A stretch of DNA of 64,000 nucleotides, taken from the NCBI RefSeq assembly GCF_001189845.1, contig NZ_LFLZ01000026.1, forward strand, positions 1 through 64,000, read 5' to 3'. Below, piece by piece: positions 4,209-62,007 of this stretch (position 1 is the stretch's first letter; each line of letters begins with the position of its first letter). This DNA comes from Bradyrhizobium tropiciagri. GTDB taxonomy: Bacteria > Pseudomonadota > Alphaproteobacteria > Rhizobiales > Xanthobacteraceae. The translations under genes and the position numbers were made by a program. The notes under the pieces are model-generated. The model worked only from the letters and a program-made list of their open reading frames with translations, ran no database searches and was not told the DNA's origin.

Positions 4209-4685
4209 TTAGCGCTTCGAGAACTGGAAGGACTTGCGGGCCTTGGCCTTGCCGTACTTCTTACGCTCGACCGCGCGGCTGTCGCGGGTCAGGAAGCCGC
4301 CCTTCTTGAGGACGCCGCGCAGCTCGGGCTCGAAGTTGGTCAGCGCCTTCGAGATGCCGTGACGAACCGCGCCGGCCTGGCCGGAGAGACCGCCGCCGGC
4401 GACGGTGCAGATCACGTCATACTGGCCGTTACGGGCGGCCGCGACCAGCGGCTGCTGGATCATCATGCGCAGCACCGGACGGGCGAAGTAGACTTCGAAC
4501 TCGCGGGTGTTGACCGAGATCTTGCCGGAGCCCGGCTTGACCCAGACGCGGGCGACCGCGTCCTTGCGCTTGCCGGTGGCGTAGGCGCGGTTGTACTTGT
4601 CGACCTTCTTGACGTACTTCGGCGCGTCGGGCGCGGCCGGCTTGACCTGCGAGAGCTGGTCGAGGGACTGCAACGTATCGGACAT
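4209..4685 (-). CDS. rpsI: 30S ribosomal protein S9
   Basis: A 158-residue S9 protein of the small ribosomal subunit. The N-terminal 30 residues are an extension typical of alphaproteobacteria; then [39 protein letters not shown] and the basic C-terminal tail [14 protein letters not shown], which reaches the P-site tRNA, are all present. Its start codon overlaps the rplM stop by one base (TAATG), so translation is coupled. A strong terminator follows. Confidence 0.98.
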
Positions 4686-5149
4686 TATGCGGCCCTCGTG
4701 TTCTTGCGGTTCAGGGAGGCGATATCGACCTTCTCGGGGCTCTGGGCTTCATGCGGATGCTCGGCACCCGGATAGACGCGCAGATTGCCCATCTGCATGC
4801 GGCCGAGCGGACCGCGCGGGATCATGCGCTCGATCGCCTTCTCGACGACGCGCTCGGGGAAGCGACCCTCGAGGATCTGCTTCGCGGTGCGCTCCTTGAT
4901 GCCACCGATGAAGCCGGTGTGCTTGTAGTAGGTCTTCTGGTCGCGCTTGCGGCCGGTCAGCACCACATGCGCGGCGTTGACGATGATGACGTTGTCGCCG
5001 CAATCGACATGCGGGGTGTAGGTGGGCAGGTGTTTGCCGCGCAGGCGCATCGCGACGAGGGTGGCGAGACGACCGACCACCAGACCCTTGGCGTCGATCA
5101 CGACCCACTTCTTCGTCACTTCGGCGGGCTTGGCCGAGAACGTGCTCAT
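4685..5149 (-). CDS. rplM: 50S ribosomal protein L13
   Basis: A 154-residue L13, an early-assembly protein of the large subunit. Diagnostic segments include [36 protein letters not shown] and [18 protein letters not shown]. It is the first gene of the universally conserved rplM-rpsI operon and is followed with a one-base overlap by rpsI. Length is normal. Confidence 0.98.
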
Positions 5150-5301
5150 GTGTGAAATCCGTGAAAAAGAAATCGGCGCCGTATGCGCCGAACTGGCGGC
5201 TTTCTAGAGAAGCCGCGGTCTCGCGTCAACGTCGACGCACCGGAATTACATCAGCAAAAACAGCAGCTTGCAAATATGGTGCAATAATACCGTAAAAAAG
5301 C

Positions 5302-5730
5302 CTATTGATTTGGAATGGAATAGGTCGCTGTGACATGGGCGATCGGGTCCGGAGAGGTGCCGGACAAGAGGTTCACCTCGCCGACCGCAAGCCGCTTGCC
5401 GAGCTTGAGCAGTTTTGCCACCGCGAGCACGTCCTGGCCCGGCTGGCCCTTGCGCAGGAAGTTGATGTTGAGGTTGGTGGTGACGGCAAGGCCGATCGGC
5501 CCGATCGCCGACAGCAGCACCACGTACATTGCGAAATCCGCCAAACCCATCAGGGTCGGTCCCGACACCGTGCCGCCCGGCCGCAGCATGCGCTCGCTGA
5601 AAGCCTGGCGCAGCAAGGCCGTCTCGCCATCGGCACTTTCGATCCTTATGTCGTCGTAGGTGAACGCCTGCGGAAATTCCCTGCGCAGGAACTCCTCCAG
5701 TTCAGCTACGCTCATTTTCGCAATCGCCAT
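5302..5730 (-). CDS. PaaI-family hotdog thioesterase
   Basis: A 142-residue single hotdog-fold protein of the PaaI/YdiI acyl-CoA thioesterase group, which hydrolyses acyl-CoA esters in the cytoplasm. The conserved helix region GPTLMGLADFAMYVVLLSAI carries the usual Asp. The strand TNLNINFLRKGQPGQDVLAVA follows the family pattern. It is divergent from an enoyl-CoA hydratase gene with about 70 bp between the starts, so a shared regulatory region and a shared role in acyl-CoA metabolism are plausible. The physiological substrate cannot be told from sequence. Confidence 0.85.
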   Translation of the reverse strand: MAIAKMSVAELEEFLRREFPQAFTYDDIRIESADGETALLRQAFSERMLRPGGTVSGPTLMGLADFAMYVVLLSAIGPIGLAVTTNLNINFLRKGQPGQDVLAVAKLLKLGKRLAVGEVNLLSGTSPDPIAHVTATYSIPNQ

Positions 5731-5800
5731 GCGGTCCCTGCCCTCGCTTCAGCCTGCCTGTTACATTAAATTGTCACAGACACGATAGAGGAATTTCGTC

Positions 5801-6628
5801 ATGTCCGCCCAGGCCGCCCGCGCGGAAGCGCCGCAACATCAGCCGATCCTGCTGCGCGAGAGCATTGGCAGTATCGCGCTACTGACGCTCAATCGCCCCG
5901 CGGCGCGCAACAGCCTTTCCGAAGGGCTGATCGGCGAGCTGCACGCTGCGCTGAACGATATCAGCGGTGACAAGAGCATCCGTGCCGTCGTGCTCGCCGC
6001 CAACGGCCCGGCGTTCTCCGCCGGCCACGACCTCAAGGAGCTCACCGCGCGCCGCACCGACGCCGACCGCGGCCGCGCCTATTTCGCGCAGATCATGAAT
6101 GCCTGCAGCGCGATGATGCAGGCGATCGTGCATTTACCGAAGCCAGTCGTGGCATCCGTCCAGGGCATCGCGACCGCAGCCGGCTGCCAGCTCGTCGCAA
6201 GCTGCGACCTCGCAGTCGCCTCCGAGGCCGCGGCATTTGCGACGCCGGGCGTCGACATCGGGTTGTTCTGCTCGACGCCGATGGTGGCGCTGTCGCGTAA
6301 CGTGCCGCGCAAGCAGGCGATGGAAATGCTGCTGACCGGAGAACCGGTCTCCGCGGCAACGGCGCAGAGCATTGGTCTCGTCAACCGCGTGGTATCAGCA
6401 GGCACCGAGCGCGACGCCGCGATCGCGCTGGCCGAGAAGGTCGCGCTGAAATCGGCCTACACCGTCAAGCTCGGCAAGGAGGCGTTCTATCGCCAGGCCG
6501 AGATGAACCTCGCCGACGCCTATCGCTTCGCCGCCGAGGTGATGACCGAGAACATGATGGCGCGCGACGCCGAGGAAGGCATCGGCGCCTTCATCGAGAA
6601 GCGCGATCCGAAGTGGCAGGATAGATGA
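5801..6628 (+). CDS. enoyl-CoA hydratase/isomerase family protein
   Basis: A 275-residue crotonase-fold enzyme. Oxyanion-hole segments are visible at FSAGHDLKEL and in the IATAAGCQLVASCDLAVAS region, followed by ATPGVDIGLFCSTP. Family members hydrate 2-enoyl-CoA in beta-oxidation or act on related thioesters. The sequence resembles the ECHDC3-like group, in which the second catalytic Glu is not always present, so the exact reaction is uncertain. The gene is divergent from the thioesterase and followed by a family A repeat that separates it from the CoA-binding protein. Confidence 0.85.
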   Translation: MSAQAARAEAPQHQPILLRESIGSIALLTLNRPAARNSLSEGLIGELHAALNDISGDKSIRAVVLAANGPAFSAGHDLKELTARRTDADRGRAYFAQIMNACSAMMQAIVHLPKPVVASVQGIATAAGCQLVASCDLAVASEAAAFATPGVDIGLFCSTPMVALSRNVPRKQAMEMLLTGEPVSAATAQSIGLVNRVVSAGTERDAAIALAEKVALKSAYTVKLGKEAFYRQAEMNLADAYRFAAEVMTENMMARDAEEGIGAFIEKRDPKWQDR

Positions 6629-36299: not shown

Positions 36300-36767
36300 A
36301 TGATTGTCAACCAAGAGACCTGGACGCCGGAGCGCGTCGACCAACTGAAAATCTACTTTGAAGCCGGCCTCTCCTGCCGCGACATCGCCGTCAATATCGG
36401 CGTCAGCCGCAATGCGGTGATCGGCAAGCTGTCGCGGCTGAACCTCACCCGCACGACGCCGGACGAACGCCGGGCGCGGCGGAAGAAAGCCACCGCGCAC
36501 GCCGCGCAACGCGCGACCGCGAAGCAGCAGCTCCAGCTGCTACAGGCGGTTTACGAGCCGGAGCCCGACGATGCGCCTGTCGTCAGCGTCAACAGCTGCT
36601 CGCTGTTCGAACTGAGCGAGCAGCGCTGCCGCTGGCCGATCAGTAGCCCGGGCGCCGATGATTTCTGCTTCTGCGGCAACACCCCGCTCGGCGGCATGCC
36701 CTATTGCTCGGGGCATTACCGCCTCGCCTATCAGGCAGGGTCCCGCCAGCGCGCGATGCGCGGGTAG
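36300..36767 (+). CDS. gcrA: GcrA-family cell cycle regulator
   Basis: A 155-residue GcrA protein. The N-terminal homeodomain-like helix-turn-helix (about 5-50) reads TWTPERVDQLKIYFEAGLSC then IGVSRNAVIGKLSRLNL, where GcrA contacts DNA near CcrM-methylated GANTC sites. A basic linker follows (RRARRKKATAHAAQ). The C-terminal part holds the sigma-70-binding region CRWPI and FCFCGNTPLGGMPYCSGHY with clustered Cys and His. GcrA recruits sigma-70 RNA polymerase to cell-cycle promoters in alphaproteobacteria. ATG 36300 matches the usual N-terminus. Confidence 0.9.
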   Translation: MIVNQETWTPERVDQLKIYFEAGLSCRDIAVNIGVSRNAVIGKLSRLNLTRTTPDERRARRKKATAHAAQRATAKQQLQLLQAVYEPEPDDAPVVSVNSCSLFELSEQRCRWPISSPGADDFCFCGNTPLGGMPYCSGHYRLAYQAGSRQRAMRG

Positions 36768-55372: not shown

Positions 55373-56673
<1,301 letters not shown>

Positions 56674-57304
56674 CGGCGAAATATCTCCACCGCCGCAAGC
56701 CCTTACACAGGATGCGGACGGTCACGAGTGGCGGTCGAAGCTGGTTTCAGAGCGTTATCACATCGCCCCAAAATGGCCAAGCGGTTGCGGTCCCCGGCGG
56801 TCAATTATGCCAGATATGGTGGGGATGGCGGGGATTGCCAGCCGGCCGGGAGCCGGCCCTGCGGTCCCGATCCCGGACGCAGCAGGCCCGGGTTCCAGCC
56901 GGCCGGTGTAGCAAGCGGCGGCCGTCGAATGGAACGTGGCGGGCCCCTTCCCGGTCGCGCCCCGCGGGATCGGTGACGAGATGTACGCCTCCTCCCTCAC
57001 TTCGCAAGAACAGAACCACGCAGCTTGCGATGCGCCCGATCATCACACGTTCGATCGCGATGCATCGCGTCACGAGACGATCTCTCGCGGGGCGAATTTT
57101 GAATCGTTCGATTCTTGAATCGTTCAACACTGGATCGATTCAAACGTCTCACGCGATGAGTGCAATTGCGCGACGTACTCCGTTGTCTCTCAGTCACACC
57201 CGCACGCTTTGCGCTCGGCTTCGATAGCTTCTAACCGCGCGCGGGCTGTTTACGAAAATCACCGTGATAACGACGCCGGAGAAAATTCTCTTCGGGGGCG
57301 TTGA
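56674..57304. other. glyA-TonB receptor divergent region
   Basis: 631 bp with no convincing gene. The part next to glyA is very GC-rich with paired runs CCAGCCGGCCGGGAG and CCAGCCGGCCGGT (about 56839 and 56897). The part next to the receptor is AT-richer and contains the GAATCG/CGATTC cluster (57098-57144). Confidence 0.5.
57098..57144. promoter_or_regulatory. cluster of GAATCG/CGATTC inverted repeats with four GANTC sites
   Basis: GAATCG at 57101 and 57117, and CGATTC at 57109 and 57136, form two overlapping palindromes: GAATCGTTCGATTC (57101-57114) and TTGAATCGTTCAA (57115-57127). The outer pair TTTGAATCG/CGATTCAAA (57098-57106, 57136-57144) is also inverted. The same bases make four GANTC sites, the CcrM methylation target. 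It lies about 160 bp before the TonB receptor start. Confidence 0.6.
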
Positions 57305-59572
57305 ATGACGGACGGATGGATTCGGCCGCAGCGGTTTGCTGCTTCGGCGTTGGTGGTGCTTTCGGTTGCTGCTGCGGACAAGGCGTTCGCGCAGACGCAA
57401 TTGCCTTCGGTGACGGTCGATGCGCCATCGCACCGGCAAGCGGCGCCCTCGCAACGGACCCCGCGCGCGCGTAGCGCCTCGCGCCGCGCCACAGTCGCCC
57501 CGGTGGGAGCACAGCCGCAAGCAGCACAGCAAGCTGCCGGCGCAGGCGGCGGACACGAGCGCGCCAACGGTCCGGTCACCGGCTATCTGGCGCGGCAGAG
57601 CGCTGTTGGCACCAAGACCAGCACGCCGATCATCCAGACGCCGCAATCGGTGACGGTCATCAGCGCCGAGCAGATCCGCGACCAGAAGATCGTCAGCAAG
57701 TTCGACGAGGTGCTGCGCTACACGCCGGGCGTCGTCGGCGGTACCTTCGGCGCCGATTTCCGCAATGACTGGTTCCTGATCCGCGGCTTCCCCGCGCAGA
57801 ACGAGTCGCTGTTCCTCGACGGCCTGCAGCTGTTCTACACTTCCTATGCGAGCTGGAAGCTGCAGCCCTTCAATCTCGAGCGCGTCGAGGTGCTGCGCGG
57901 TCCGTCCGGCATCCTGTACGGCGGCTCGGCGCCGGGCGGCCTCGTCAACGCGGTGAGCAAGTTGCCGACGGCCGAGCCCATTCGCTACATCGAGACCGGC
58001 GTCAACAATTTCGGCAACGCCTATACCCAGTTCGACATCGGCGGCGCGACGGCGCAGCCCGGCGGCGGCCAGGTGCAGTATCGCCTCGTCGGCCAGGCCC
58101 AGGGCGGCGGCACCCAGACCGACTATGTCTACGACAACAATTTCTTCTTCGCCCCGTCGGTGACCTGGCGGCCCGATGCCGACACCAGCCTCACCGTGTT
58201 CGGCATGGCCTCGCACAGCAACACCCGCGCGCTGAACTTCCTGCCCTATGTCGGCACCGTCACCAACGCGCCGTTCGGCCGGATTCCGACCAGCCTGTTC
58301 GCCGGCGATCCAAGCGTCGACCAGTTCCGTCGCGACCAGGAGATGGTCGGCTACCAGTTCCAGAAGAGCGTCACCGACAACGTCGACTTCCGCCAGAACG
58401 CGCGCATGGCGCATGTCGACGTCTATTACGCCGGCCTCTACGGGCTCGGCTACGCGACGACGCCGGCCGCCGCCGATATCACCCGCGGAAATTTCTACAC
58501 CCGCGGCATCGCCACGCAACTCAACCTCGACAATCAGCTCGAATATCGCTTTGCGACCGGCGCGTTGCAGCACACGGCGCTGGTCGGCGTCGATCTGAAA
58601 TATTACGGCATCGACGACCGCCAGGGCTTTGGCGCGGGCACGAACCTCAACGTGCTCAATCCGGTCTATGGCAACAACCTGCCGTTCAGCGGCGCGCTCT
58701 ATCAGAACGCCTATCTGACCCAGGGCATGGCCGGACTCTATCTGCAGGATCAGGTCAAGCTCGACCGCCTGACGGTGGTGTTGTCGGGGCGCCAGGACTG
58801 GGTCGATCTCACCAGCAACAACCGGATCGGCGCCTCGCAGGGCCGCGACGACAGCAAGTTCTCCGGCCGTGTCGGCGCGATCTACAATTTCGACAGCGGC
58901 GTTGCGCCCTACGTTTCCTATATGACCGGCTACAATCCGGTGATCGGCACCAATGCCGCCGGCCAGCTGCTGCTGCCGGAAACCTCCGAGCAGACCGAGG
59001 TCGGCGTCAAGTACGAGCCGGCCGGGCTCAACGCGCGGTTCGGCGTCGCGTATTTCGATCTCAAGCGCAAGAACGCGCTGACCACAGATCCGAACAACAC
59101 CCTGTTCCAGACCCAGAATGGCGAGGTCACCTCGCGCGGCGTCGAGCTCGAGGCGGTCGCGAACATCACGCGGGATTTCAAGTTGGTGGCGAGCTACACC
59201 AATTACGAGCTGTTCGTCAGCAAGGACCCCAATCCCGCGCTGATCGGCACCGTGCCGACCAACACGCCCCGAGAGCTCGCGTCGGTCTGGACCGACTACA
59301 CCTTCCGCGAGGGTCCGCTCACGGGCTTCGGCTTCGGCGGCGGCGTGCGCTATGTCGGCTCGTCCTTTGCCGACACCGCGAACACCGCGCGCGTTCCGGG
59401 GGTCGTGCTCGGCGACCTCGCCTTGCACTATGAATGGGACAACAACTGGCGCGCGGCGCTCAATGTCGTGAACGTGACGGACAAGATCTACGTCGCGAGC
59501 TGCGCCACGATCAGCTCCTGCTACTACGGCGATCGCCGGCGCATCACGGCAAGCCTCGCCTACAAATGGTGA
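57305..59572 (+). CDS. TonB-dependent siderophore receptor
   Basis: A 755-residue outer-membrane receptor of the FhuA/FoxA-like siderophore group. The signal peptide is about 28 residues (ends ADKAFA). An Ala/Arg/Pro-rich stretch follows (about 40-90), then the plug domain with TPQSVTVISAEQIRDQK and LDGLQLFYTSYASWKLQPF, VEVLRGPSGILYGGSAPGGL. The beta-barrel ends in an aromatic-lysine-Trp (ASLAYKW). It imports a ferric siderophore using TonB energy. No siderophore ABC transporter is beside it. A terminator follows at 59610. Confidence 0.93.
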   Translation: MTDGWIRPQRFAASALVVLSVAAADKAFAQTQLPSVTVDAPSHRQAAPSQRTPRARSASRRATVAPVGAQPQAAQQAAGAGGGHERANGPVTGYLARQSAVGTKTSTPIIQTPQSVTVISAEQIRDQKIVSKFDEVLRYTPGVVGGTFGADFRNDWFLIRGFPAQNESLFLDGLQLFYTSYASWKLQPFNLERVEVLRGPSGILYGGSAPGGLVNAVSKLPTAEPIRYIETGVNNFGNAYTQFDIGGATAQPGGGQVQYRLVGQAQGGGTQTDYVYDNNFFFAPSVTWRPDADTSLTVFGMASHSNTRALNFLPYVGTVTNAPFGRIPTSLFAGDPSVDQFRRDQEMVGYQFQKSVTDNVDFRQNARMAHVDVYYAGLYGLGYATTPAAADITRGNFYTRGIATQLNLDNQLEYRFATGALQHTALVGVDLKYYGIDDRQGFGAGTNLNVLNPVYGNNLPFSGALYQNAYLTQGMAGLYLQDQVKLDRLTVVLSGRQDWVDLTSNNRIGASQGRDDSKFSGRVGAIYNFDSGVAPYVSYMTGYNPVIGTNAAGQLLLPETSEQTEVGVKYEPAGLNARFGVAYFDLKRKNALTTDPNNTLFQTQNGEVTSRGVELEAVANITRDFKLVASYTNYELFVSKDPNPALIGTVPTNTPRELASVWTDYTFREGPLTGFGFGGGVRYVGSSFADTANTARVPGVVLGDLALHYEWDNNWRAALNVVNVTDKIYVASCATISSCYYGDRRRITASLAYKW

Positions 59573-61488: not shown

Positions 61489-62007
61489 TCAGAGGCGATA
61501 CAGGATCTGGTCGGTCCAGAAGCGCTCGAGGCGATGCAGCGACTTGTTGAGGCTCGCGAACTCCTCGTTCGAGATGCCGCCGACCTGCTCCACCGTCTTG
61601 ACGTGCTTCTGATAGAGCGCATCGACGATGCGGCGCACTTCCTGGCCCTGCGGGGTCAGACGGATGCGGACCGAGCGGCGATCGACGCGCGAGCGCTGAT
61701 GATCGAGGAAGCCGAGCTCGACCAGCTTCTTCAGATTGTAGGAGACGTTGGAGCCGAGATAGTAGCCGCGGGTGCGCAGCTCGCCGGCGGTCAGTTCCTT
61801 GTCACCGATATTGTACAGGAGCAGTGCCTGCACCGAGTTGATGTCGGCGCGGCCGCGACGATCGAATTCGTCCTTGATGACGTCGAGGAGCCGGCGATGC
61901 AGCCGCTCCACCAAAGTCAGGGCTTCGAGATAGAGCGGCTGCACCGGAGCTTGACCGGTAGCGCGATCAGCGGCATCCGCCGCCGTTGTCGCAACGGCTT
62001 TCATCAT
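61489..62007 (-). CDS. MarR family winged-helix regulator (LdtR-like)
   Basis: A 172-residue winged-helix protein. The core is at about 45-140: VIKDEFDRRGRADINSVQAL, TAGELRTRGYYLGSNVSYNL (recognition helix) and the wing HQRSRVDRRSVRIRLT. This SNVSYNLKKLVE pattern resembles LdtR, a rhizobial regulator linked to L,D-transpeptidase genes and stress; the assignment is from memory and not certain. GGGGAAG precedes the ATG. It lies between hemB and glyA, the place LdtR genes often occupy in rhizobia. Confidence 0.85.
   Translation of the reverse strand: MMKAVATTAADAADRATGQAPVQPLYLEALTLVERLHRRLLDVIKDEFDRRGRADINSVQALLLYNIGDKELTAGELRTRGYYLGSNVSYNLKKLVELGFLDHQRSRVDRRSVRIRLTPQGQEVRRIVDALYQKHVKTVEQVGGISNEEFASLNKSLHRLERFWTDQILYRL

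Follow-up and report, generated by a model that had tools for sequence, protein, structure and literature searches.

Clustered GANTC sites in a putative Irr operator array upstream of a TonB-dependent siderophore receptor gene of Bradyrhizobium tropiciagri

We report that four GANTC sites clustered upstream of a TonB-dependent siderophore receptor gene are best read as a by-product of a repeated, putative docking site for Irr, a regulator of the Fur family. We put at roughly 0.8 the probability that the cluster region serves Irr as an array of operator units, three in number, and the promoter of this ferrichrome-type receptor is very probably Irr-controlled. In such an array GANTC would arise from a unit reading GAA-TCG-TTC, and methylation there, though expected, would be incidental. 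Throughout, the window is the whole stretch of DNA that was analysed (64,000 nucleotides), and positions are given in its numbering.

Results

An earlier note on this DNA had reported GANTC sites starting at 57101, 57110, 57117 and 57137, and our count returned exactly these four starts, 164–204 bp ahead of the receptor ATG. No other four GANTC in the window are packed as closely as these, which occupy 41 bp (the runner-up group elsewhere spans 153 bp). The expectation of one site per about 300 bp, on which the note had judged the cluster, was too generous, as the window holds 96 GANTC, or one per 667 bp; for the window as a whole this is a strong depletion, 96 sites against a mean of 330 in dinucleotide shuffles. 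The inverted repeats described with the sites are real: the arms 57098–57119 and 57123–57144 are 82% complementary, and those of the tighter repeat, 57115–57125 and 57133–57143, are 91% complementary. Since each of the four GANTC sites falls within, or overlaps, a copy of a single repeated unit, they are not independent events.

The segment 57097–57145 resolves into three 13-bp units similar to the Irr box, or iron control element (ICE), and centred at 57105, 57121 and 57137, at steps of exactly 16 bp (Table 1). In order they read TTGAATCGTTCGA, TTGAATCGTTCAA and then, inverted and weaker, TGGATCGATTCAA. Unit 1 contains the GANTC at 57101 and partly covers that at 57110, unit 2 contains that at 57117, and unit 3 that at 57137. 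The GAA-N3-TTC core is perfect in units 1 and 2 and degenerate in unit 3, and the outer positions deviate; none of the three is a perfect ICE, with two mismatches to TTWGAANNNTTCWAA in each of units 1 and 2 by manual count. The array stands about 160–208 bp ahead of the receptor start codon, which the frame listing of the window places at 57305. A scan of 56990–57310 contained no sigma-70 consensus promoter. The proximal ICE-like site may be either a second Irr contact or the −10 region.

Table 1 Features of the receptor locus (positions in the window).
Feature	Position	Strand	Basis
Unit 1, ICE-like 17-mer TTTTGAATCGTTCGATT	57097–57113 (13-bp core 57099–57111)	+	Matrix rank 3
Unit 2, ICE-like 17-mer TCTTGAATCGTTCAACA	57113–57129 (13-bp core 57115–57127)	+	Matrix rank 1
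Unit 3, inverted weaker ICE-like 17-mer ACTGGATCGATTCAAAC	57129–57145 (13-bp core 57131–57143)	−	Matrix rank 4
Composite inverted repeat, conserved 29 bp (units 2 and 3)	57115–57143		Alignment of the window and 17 orthologues
Invariant CGTTGTC, possible core-promoter element (putative role)	57181–57187	+	18 of 18 sequences
Proximal ICE-like site CTTCGATAGCTTCTAAC	57219–57235 (TTCTAA 57229–57234)	+	Matrix rank 2
TonB-dependent siderophore receptor, ferrichrome/hydroxamate type by best-scoring relatives	57305–59572	+	Pfam and NCBIfam, 80 related loci

The downstream gene had been called a TonB receptor, and profile searches bear this out, with the Pfam Plug and barrel domains and NCBIfam TIGR01783 (TonB-siderophor) all above their own cut-offs; PRK14050, FhuA and FoxA out-score TIGR01783, yet each remains under its own cut-off. 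Its eleven nearest relatives (L001–L011) are 93–97% identical, and every one of these records is named Bradyrhizobium. In the frame listing of the window, no FegB-like membrane-protein frame was seen after the receptor; after the distant orthologue L016, a membrane-protein frame at 4623–5873 may, by eye, correspond to FegB. We searched for regulatory RNA in 56700–57600, where Rfam gave no match at E values up to 1. The leader (57260–57304) includes ATCACCGTGAT and can fold into a small hairpin, the stem of which is spelled differently in two orthologue groups; as folding energies were ordinary (z of −0.97 for the window and −1.34 to +1.15 for four others), we make no claim of an RNA element. 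Two minus-strand genes were recorded in the surroundings. A glyA (serine hydroxymethyltransferase) frame occupies 55373–56673 in two parts, the window being one base short near 55756 relative to five of six aligned relatives, with L006 agreeing with the window (L001 gave no match and is outside the six); the split may be a sequencing error or a real frameshift. The MarR-family regulator LdtR lies at 61489–62007 (NCBIfam NF047395, 286 bits, cut-off 250).

We then took the form of the ICE/Irr box from the group's own bfr, mbfA and sufB boxes, in this genome and its relatives, and built the weight matrix only from these. The search pattern TTTAGAANNNTTCTAAA, a presumed form of the box, was first met upstream of bfr and then applied elsewhere. 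Upstream of bfr the boxes read TTTAGAAGC(A/G)TTCTAAA and near variants, upstream of mbfA TTTAGAATAGTTCTAAA and variants, and upstream of sufB GCTTGAAC.GTTCTAAG in five of the six boxes used; the sufB boxes show TTGAA as an apparently accepted ICE half-site. For bfr, 11 of the 12 fetched loci were used (L151 omitted), including two with weak boxes (L148 and L152). For mbfA, ten of 12 loci were examined (two under the cut-off were omitted) and seven used, L181, L182 and L186 having no clear box; for sufB, 13 of 20 were examined and six used, L195, L198, L200 and L204–L207 being dropped for the same reason, some of them second copies. As loci without a clear box were dropped, the combined matrix rests on chosen boxes, whereas the bfr-only test omits only L151.

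Scanned over 63,984 positions, the combined bfr, mbfA and suf matrix gave ranks 1–4 to unit 2, the proximal site, unit 1 and unit 3, respectively. Units 1, 2, 3 and the proximal site ranked 2, 3, 72 and 1 with bfr alone, 1, 3, 31 and 2 with mbfA alone, and 14, 3, 5 and 1 with suf alone; the corresponding ranks from a previous, slightly differently weighted bfr matrix were 2, 4, 72 and 1. The three-unit cluster scored 34.8, against 4.6 for the next segment of the scan. The sum of the top four scores (47.5) was reached in none of 5,000 dinucleotide shuffles of 57000–57304 (mean −3.8, s.d. 8.3, maximum 27.0), and the top single score in 18 of 5,000. Permuting the half-sites of the combined matrix placed four of the top four in 56674–57304 in 0 of 1,500 matrices and three in 7 of 1,500; among 1,000 permutations of the bfr-only matrix, 10 matched its own result of three among the top four. 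These results support a possibility that the earlier note had raised as its second option, an operator for another regulator that happens to contain GANTC, and point to Irr as the likely regulator.

The bfr-only matrix was also applied to the receptor loci, of which 79 remained after L077, having no upstream sequence, was removed from the 80. In 34 of the 79, among them all 17 close orthologues, the promoter site ranked first in its locus; in 71, the promoter held two or more of the top four matches. Eight loci had fewer than two of the top four within 330 bp upstream, and six of these had none; several of these exceptions have a mis-set start, and their repeats then fall just outside the 330 bp.

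At the genome level, TTWGAANNNTTCWAA with one mismatch was mildly enriched (25 places, 15 for the reversed control). Its four exact matches lie at bfr, at mbfA, at a TonB receptor and upstream of a PcaR-type regulator without known tie to iron. With two mismatches allowed, the loose pattern TTGAATCGNNCGATTC yielded 51 strand matches, and its reversed control 8. We rejected both searches as definers of targets, neither sufficing alone.

We aligned the upstream regions of the window and 17 close orthologues (L001–L015, L019 and L078), whose receptors are 81–97% identical. Across these 18 sequences, the inner 29 bp is the best kept distal block. TTGAATC in unit 2 is invariant (18/18), including the N position of its GANTC and the preceding TTG, which is more than methylation alone would require; ATTCAA in unit 3 is invariant as well, its GATTC being kept in 17 sequences, and unit 1 has GAATC in 14. 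Outside GANTC, the flanking TTG and CAA show the same constancy as GANTC proper. The conservation in relatives that the earlier note had looked to stood for the sites at 57117 and 57137 (18 and 17 of 18) and for most sequences at 57101 (14 of 18), and failed at 57110 (1 of 18). This pattern suggests that GANTC is kept only where the operator would need it, one of the four sites being found in a single sequence among the 18.

The close orthologues differ in how many copies of the upstream unit they have and in whether these follow at 12-bp or 16-bp steps. Between the last TTGAATC unit and TTCTAA further downstream, 17 of the 18 sequences keep a distance of 114 bp; L015 has 125 bp, with an 11-bp insertion, close to one helical turn. 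Counted from where the last unit begins, CGTTGTC lies at 66 bp in 17 sequences and at 77 bp in L015, and all 18 place it 48 bp ahead of TTCTAA. At the proximal site, TTCTAA is present in all 18 sequences, with a variable left half-site. The constant spacing between operator and TTCTAA fits a protein-bound operator with a fixed geometry to the promoter.

Related operators were found elsewhere. The 29-mer pattern, allowing up to three mismatches, occurs in at least 78 of 146 Bradyrhizobium genomes, with zero matches of the reversed control in every genome; some of the three-mismatch matches are probably due to chance. By eye, a receptor-like frame adjoins the 29-mer site in nine of ten loci viewed, L120 being the exception, and one of the nine is the same receptor. 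In the genome of the window itself, the degenerate-letter pattern hits four places: two registers of the window operator, C35:1673 (three mismatches, inside a predicted frame, and probably a chance match) and C1:86947. At C1:86947 the operator, the second one of this genome, closes a series of TTTAGAAC/TTAGAAC half-sites. The frame downstream of it is a relative of TonB siderophore receptors, matches TIGR01783 and Fiu under cut-off and is cut by the locus end.

Outside the close orthologues, TCTAAGA repeats stand within 450 bp upstream in 57 of 62 other receptor loci, indicating the same kind of site, in another spelling, before the same gene in other lineages. By eye, these repeats are mostly TTCTAAGA at 12-bp steps, followed by TTTCAATTAGG.

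In B. japonicum-type loci there is a second ICE-like site, often higher-scoring, 2.7–3.8 kb past the receptor start, and in two loci inspected by eye (near 5407 of L026 and 6286 of L016) it just precedes a NuoA-looking frame. In L113, L115, L138 and L154, receptors with the second operator type adjoin, by eye, an RND membrane-fusion-like frame, for which the ExsFGH siderophore exporter of B. japonicum (PMC10760861) offers a comparison.

Discussion

Under the reading that we prefer, Irr would accumulate under iron limitation and bind the three ICE-like units at 57097–57145; bound Irr, held at a constant distance from the core promoter downstream, would then activate transcription of the receptor gene at 57305, and with ample iron Irr would be degraded and the receptor switched off. 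The same genome carries an irr gene (C77:37217–37507; NF045678 IrrA, 219.5 bits, cut-off 150). Irr is described as repressing bfr, mbfA and sufA in B. japonicum, as accumulating when iron is limiting and as being degraded with iron (PMC4902296), TTCTAA has been reported as a confirmed part of the ICE (PMC7540006), and rhizobial TonB receptors are described as activated by Irr (PMC3772312, citing Small et al. 2009). Our use of sufB boxes presumes that repression extends from sufA to sufB.

From the sequence and its relatives we infer that Irr binds here, that it activates and does not repress, and where the core promoter lies. Activation is suggested by distance, as repressor-type boxes lie nearer the start codon than this array, beginning about 43–85 bp before it for bfr and about 38–47 bp for mbfA. 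This argument is not firm, since sufB boxes also lie far out, 141–155 bp before the ATG, so that distance alone does not discriminate between the two modes.

The array resembles the ICE of Bradyrhizobium and other rhizobia in the GAA-N3-TTC core of units 1 and 2, its AT-rich flanks, its place upstream of an iron gene and the presence of irr in the genome, and differs in having TTGAA rather than TTTAGAA half-sites and three units at a 16-bp step, the third inverted and weak. TonB receptor promoters activated by Irr are reported for B. japonicum (Small et al. 2009, as cited by later papers). Our locus shares with them a ferric siderophore receptor gene with an operator upstream, and in B. japonicum-type genomes the equivalent stretch of the orthologous loci carries TTCTAAGA repeats; our locus differs in the sequence of the array.

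Another dimeric regulator might instead recognise TTGAATCG palindromes that are only Irr-box-like, with Irr acting at the proximal site or nowhere. We consider this unlikely, though it has points in its favour: the half-site is TTGAA where bfr and mbfA boxes have TTTAGAA, the 29-mer is more strictly conserved than an ICE would demand, its central ACACTGGATCG part exceeding what an ICE would explain, and unit 3 is a poor match in two of the three single-gene matrices. These points are outweighed by the ranks of 1–4 that the units and the proximal site take with the Irr-box matrix, by the TTGAA half-sites of the sufB boxes, by the mixed TAGAA/TTGAA operators that stand before other TonB receptors and by the TCTAAGA repeats of the other orthologous loci. 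Nor was a regulator gene seen beside the sites in ten loci inspected by eye.

The earlier note had named first a cell-cycle switch, in which CcrM methylates the four GANTC sites and GcrA reads them, timing receptor expression. The tightness of the foursome speaks for such a switch, as does the presence of GcrA-family genes in the genome; the gcrA that had been placed in the window is indeed there as a GcrA-family gene at 36318–36761. This copy scores below the one on contig C49 (Pfam 148 against 202 bits, NCBIfam 88.5 against 162.5), and both NCBIfam scores are under the 280-bit cut-off; a third GcrA-family stretch, on C2, has an internal stop. For B. diazoefficiens, GANTC methylation is reported at 99.77% in culture and at 97.46% in bacteroids (PMC4840208), and the four sites here are probably methylated too. 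Among 57 other orthologues, moreover, 36 have a GANTC within or immediately next to their ICE-like repeats, compared with 1.01 per kb in receptor frames. This excess is explained by the repeat itself: TC follows GA in 23.7% of 118 repeat units of these orthologues, compared with 21.0% expected from independent columns. Conservation of GANTC is uneven (14, 1, 18 and 17 of 18), and the non-GANTC flanks are equally constant at the last two sites. Finally, none of the four sites fits YGAKTCG on either strand, a result that is not conclusive, since the paper that cites this extended motif for Caulobacter GcrA observed no such extension in Brevundimonas (PMC7987155). Uneven conservation, the expected TC frequency and the absent motif led us to drop the GcrA/CcrM switch as the leading reading, and we now regard it as highly improbable.

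A combined reading would have bound Irr keep GANTC un- or hemimethylated under iron starvation, while methylation, or its transient loss after replication, would alter Irr binding and so make receptor expression depend on iron and the cell cycle alike. Its precedent is MucR, described as shielding GANTC from CcrM in Caulobacter and Sinorhizobium (PMC5172544). As there, GANTC lies inside a likely regulator-binding region where competition with CcrM could occur; a difference is that the sequence here matches Irr boxes. The overlap of GANTC with the repeats recurs in those 36 of 57 orthologues, no oftener than the base preferences of the repeat predict. No title among the best matches in the open-licence literature linked Irr operators with GANTC. 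We hold this coupling to be improbable, if somewhat less so than the cell-cycle switch.

With an Irr operator array, as we prefer to read the cluster, what looked like an oddity of methylation leads to a definite prediction, namely that the receptor would belong to the Irr regulon. ICE half-sites of the TTGAA type, which were not found in bfr and mbfA boxes, are indicated at TonB receptors and at sufB, and their use would broaden the search for the regulon in Bradyrhizobium. Its overlap with CcrM sites would also make this promoter a natural place to test iron status against local DNA methylation.
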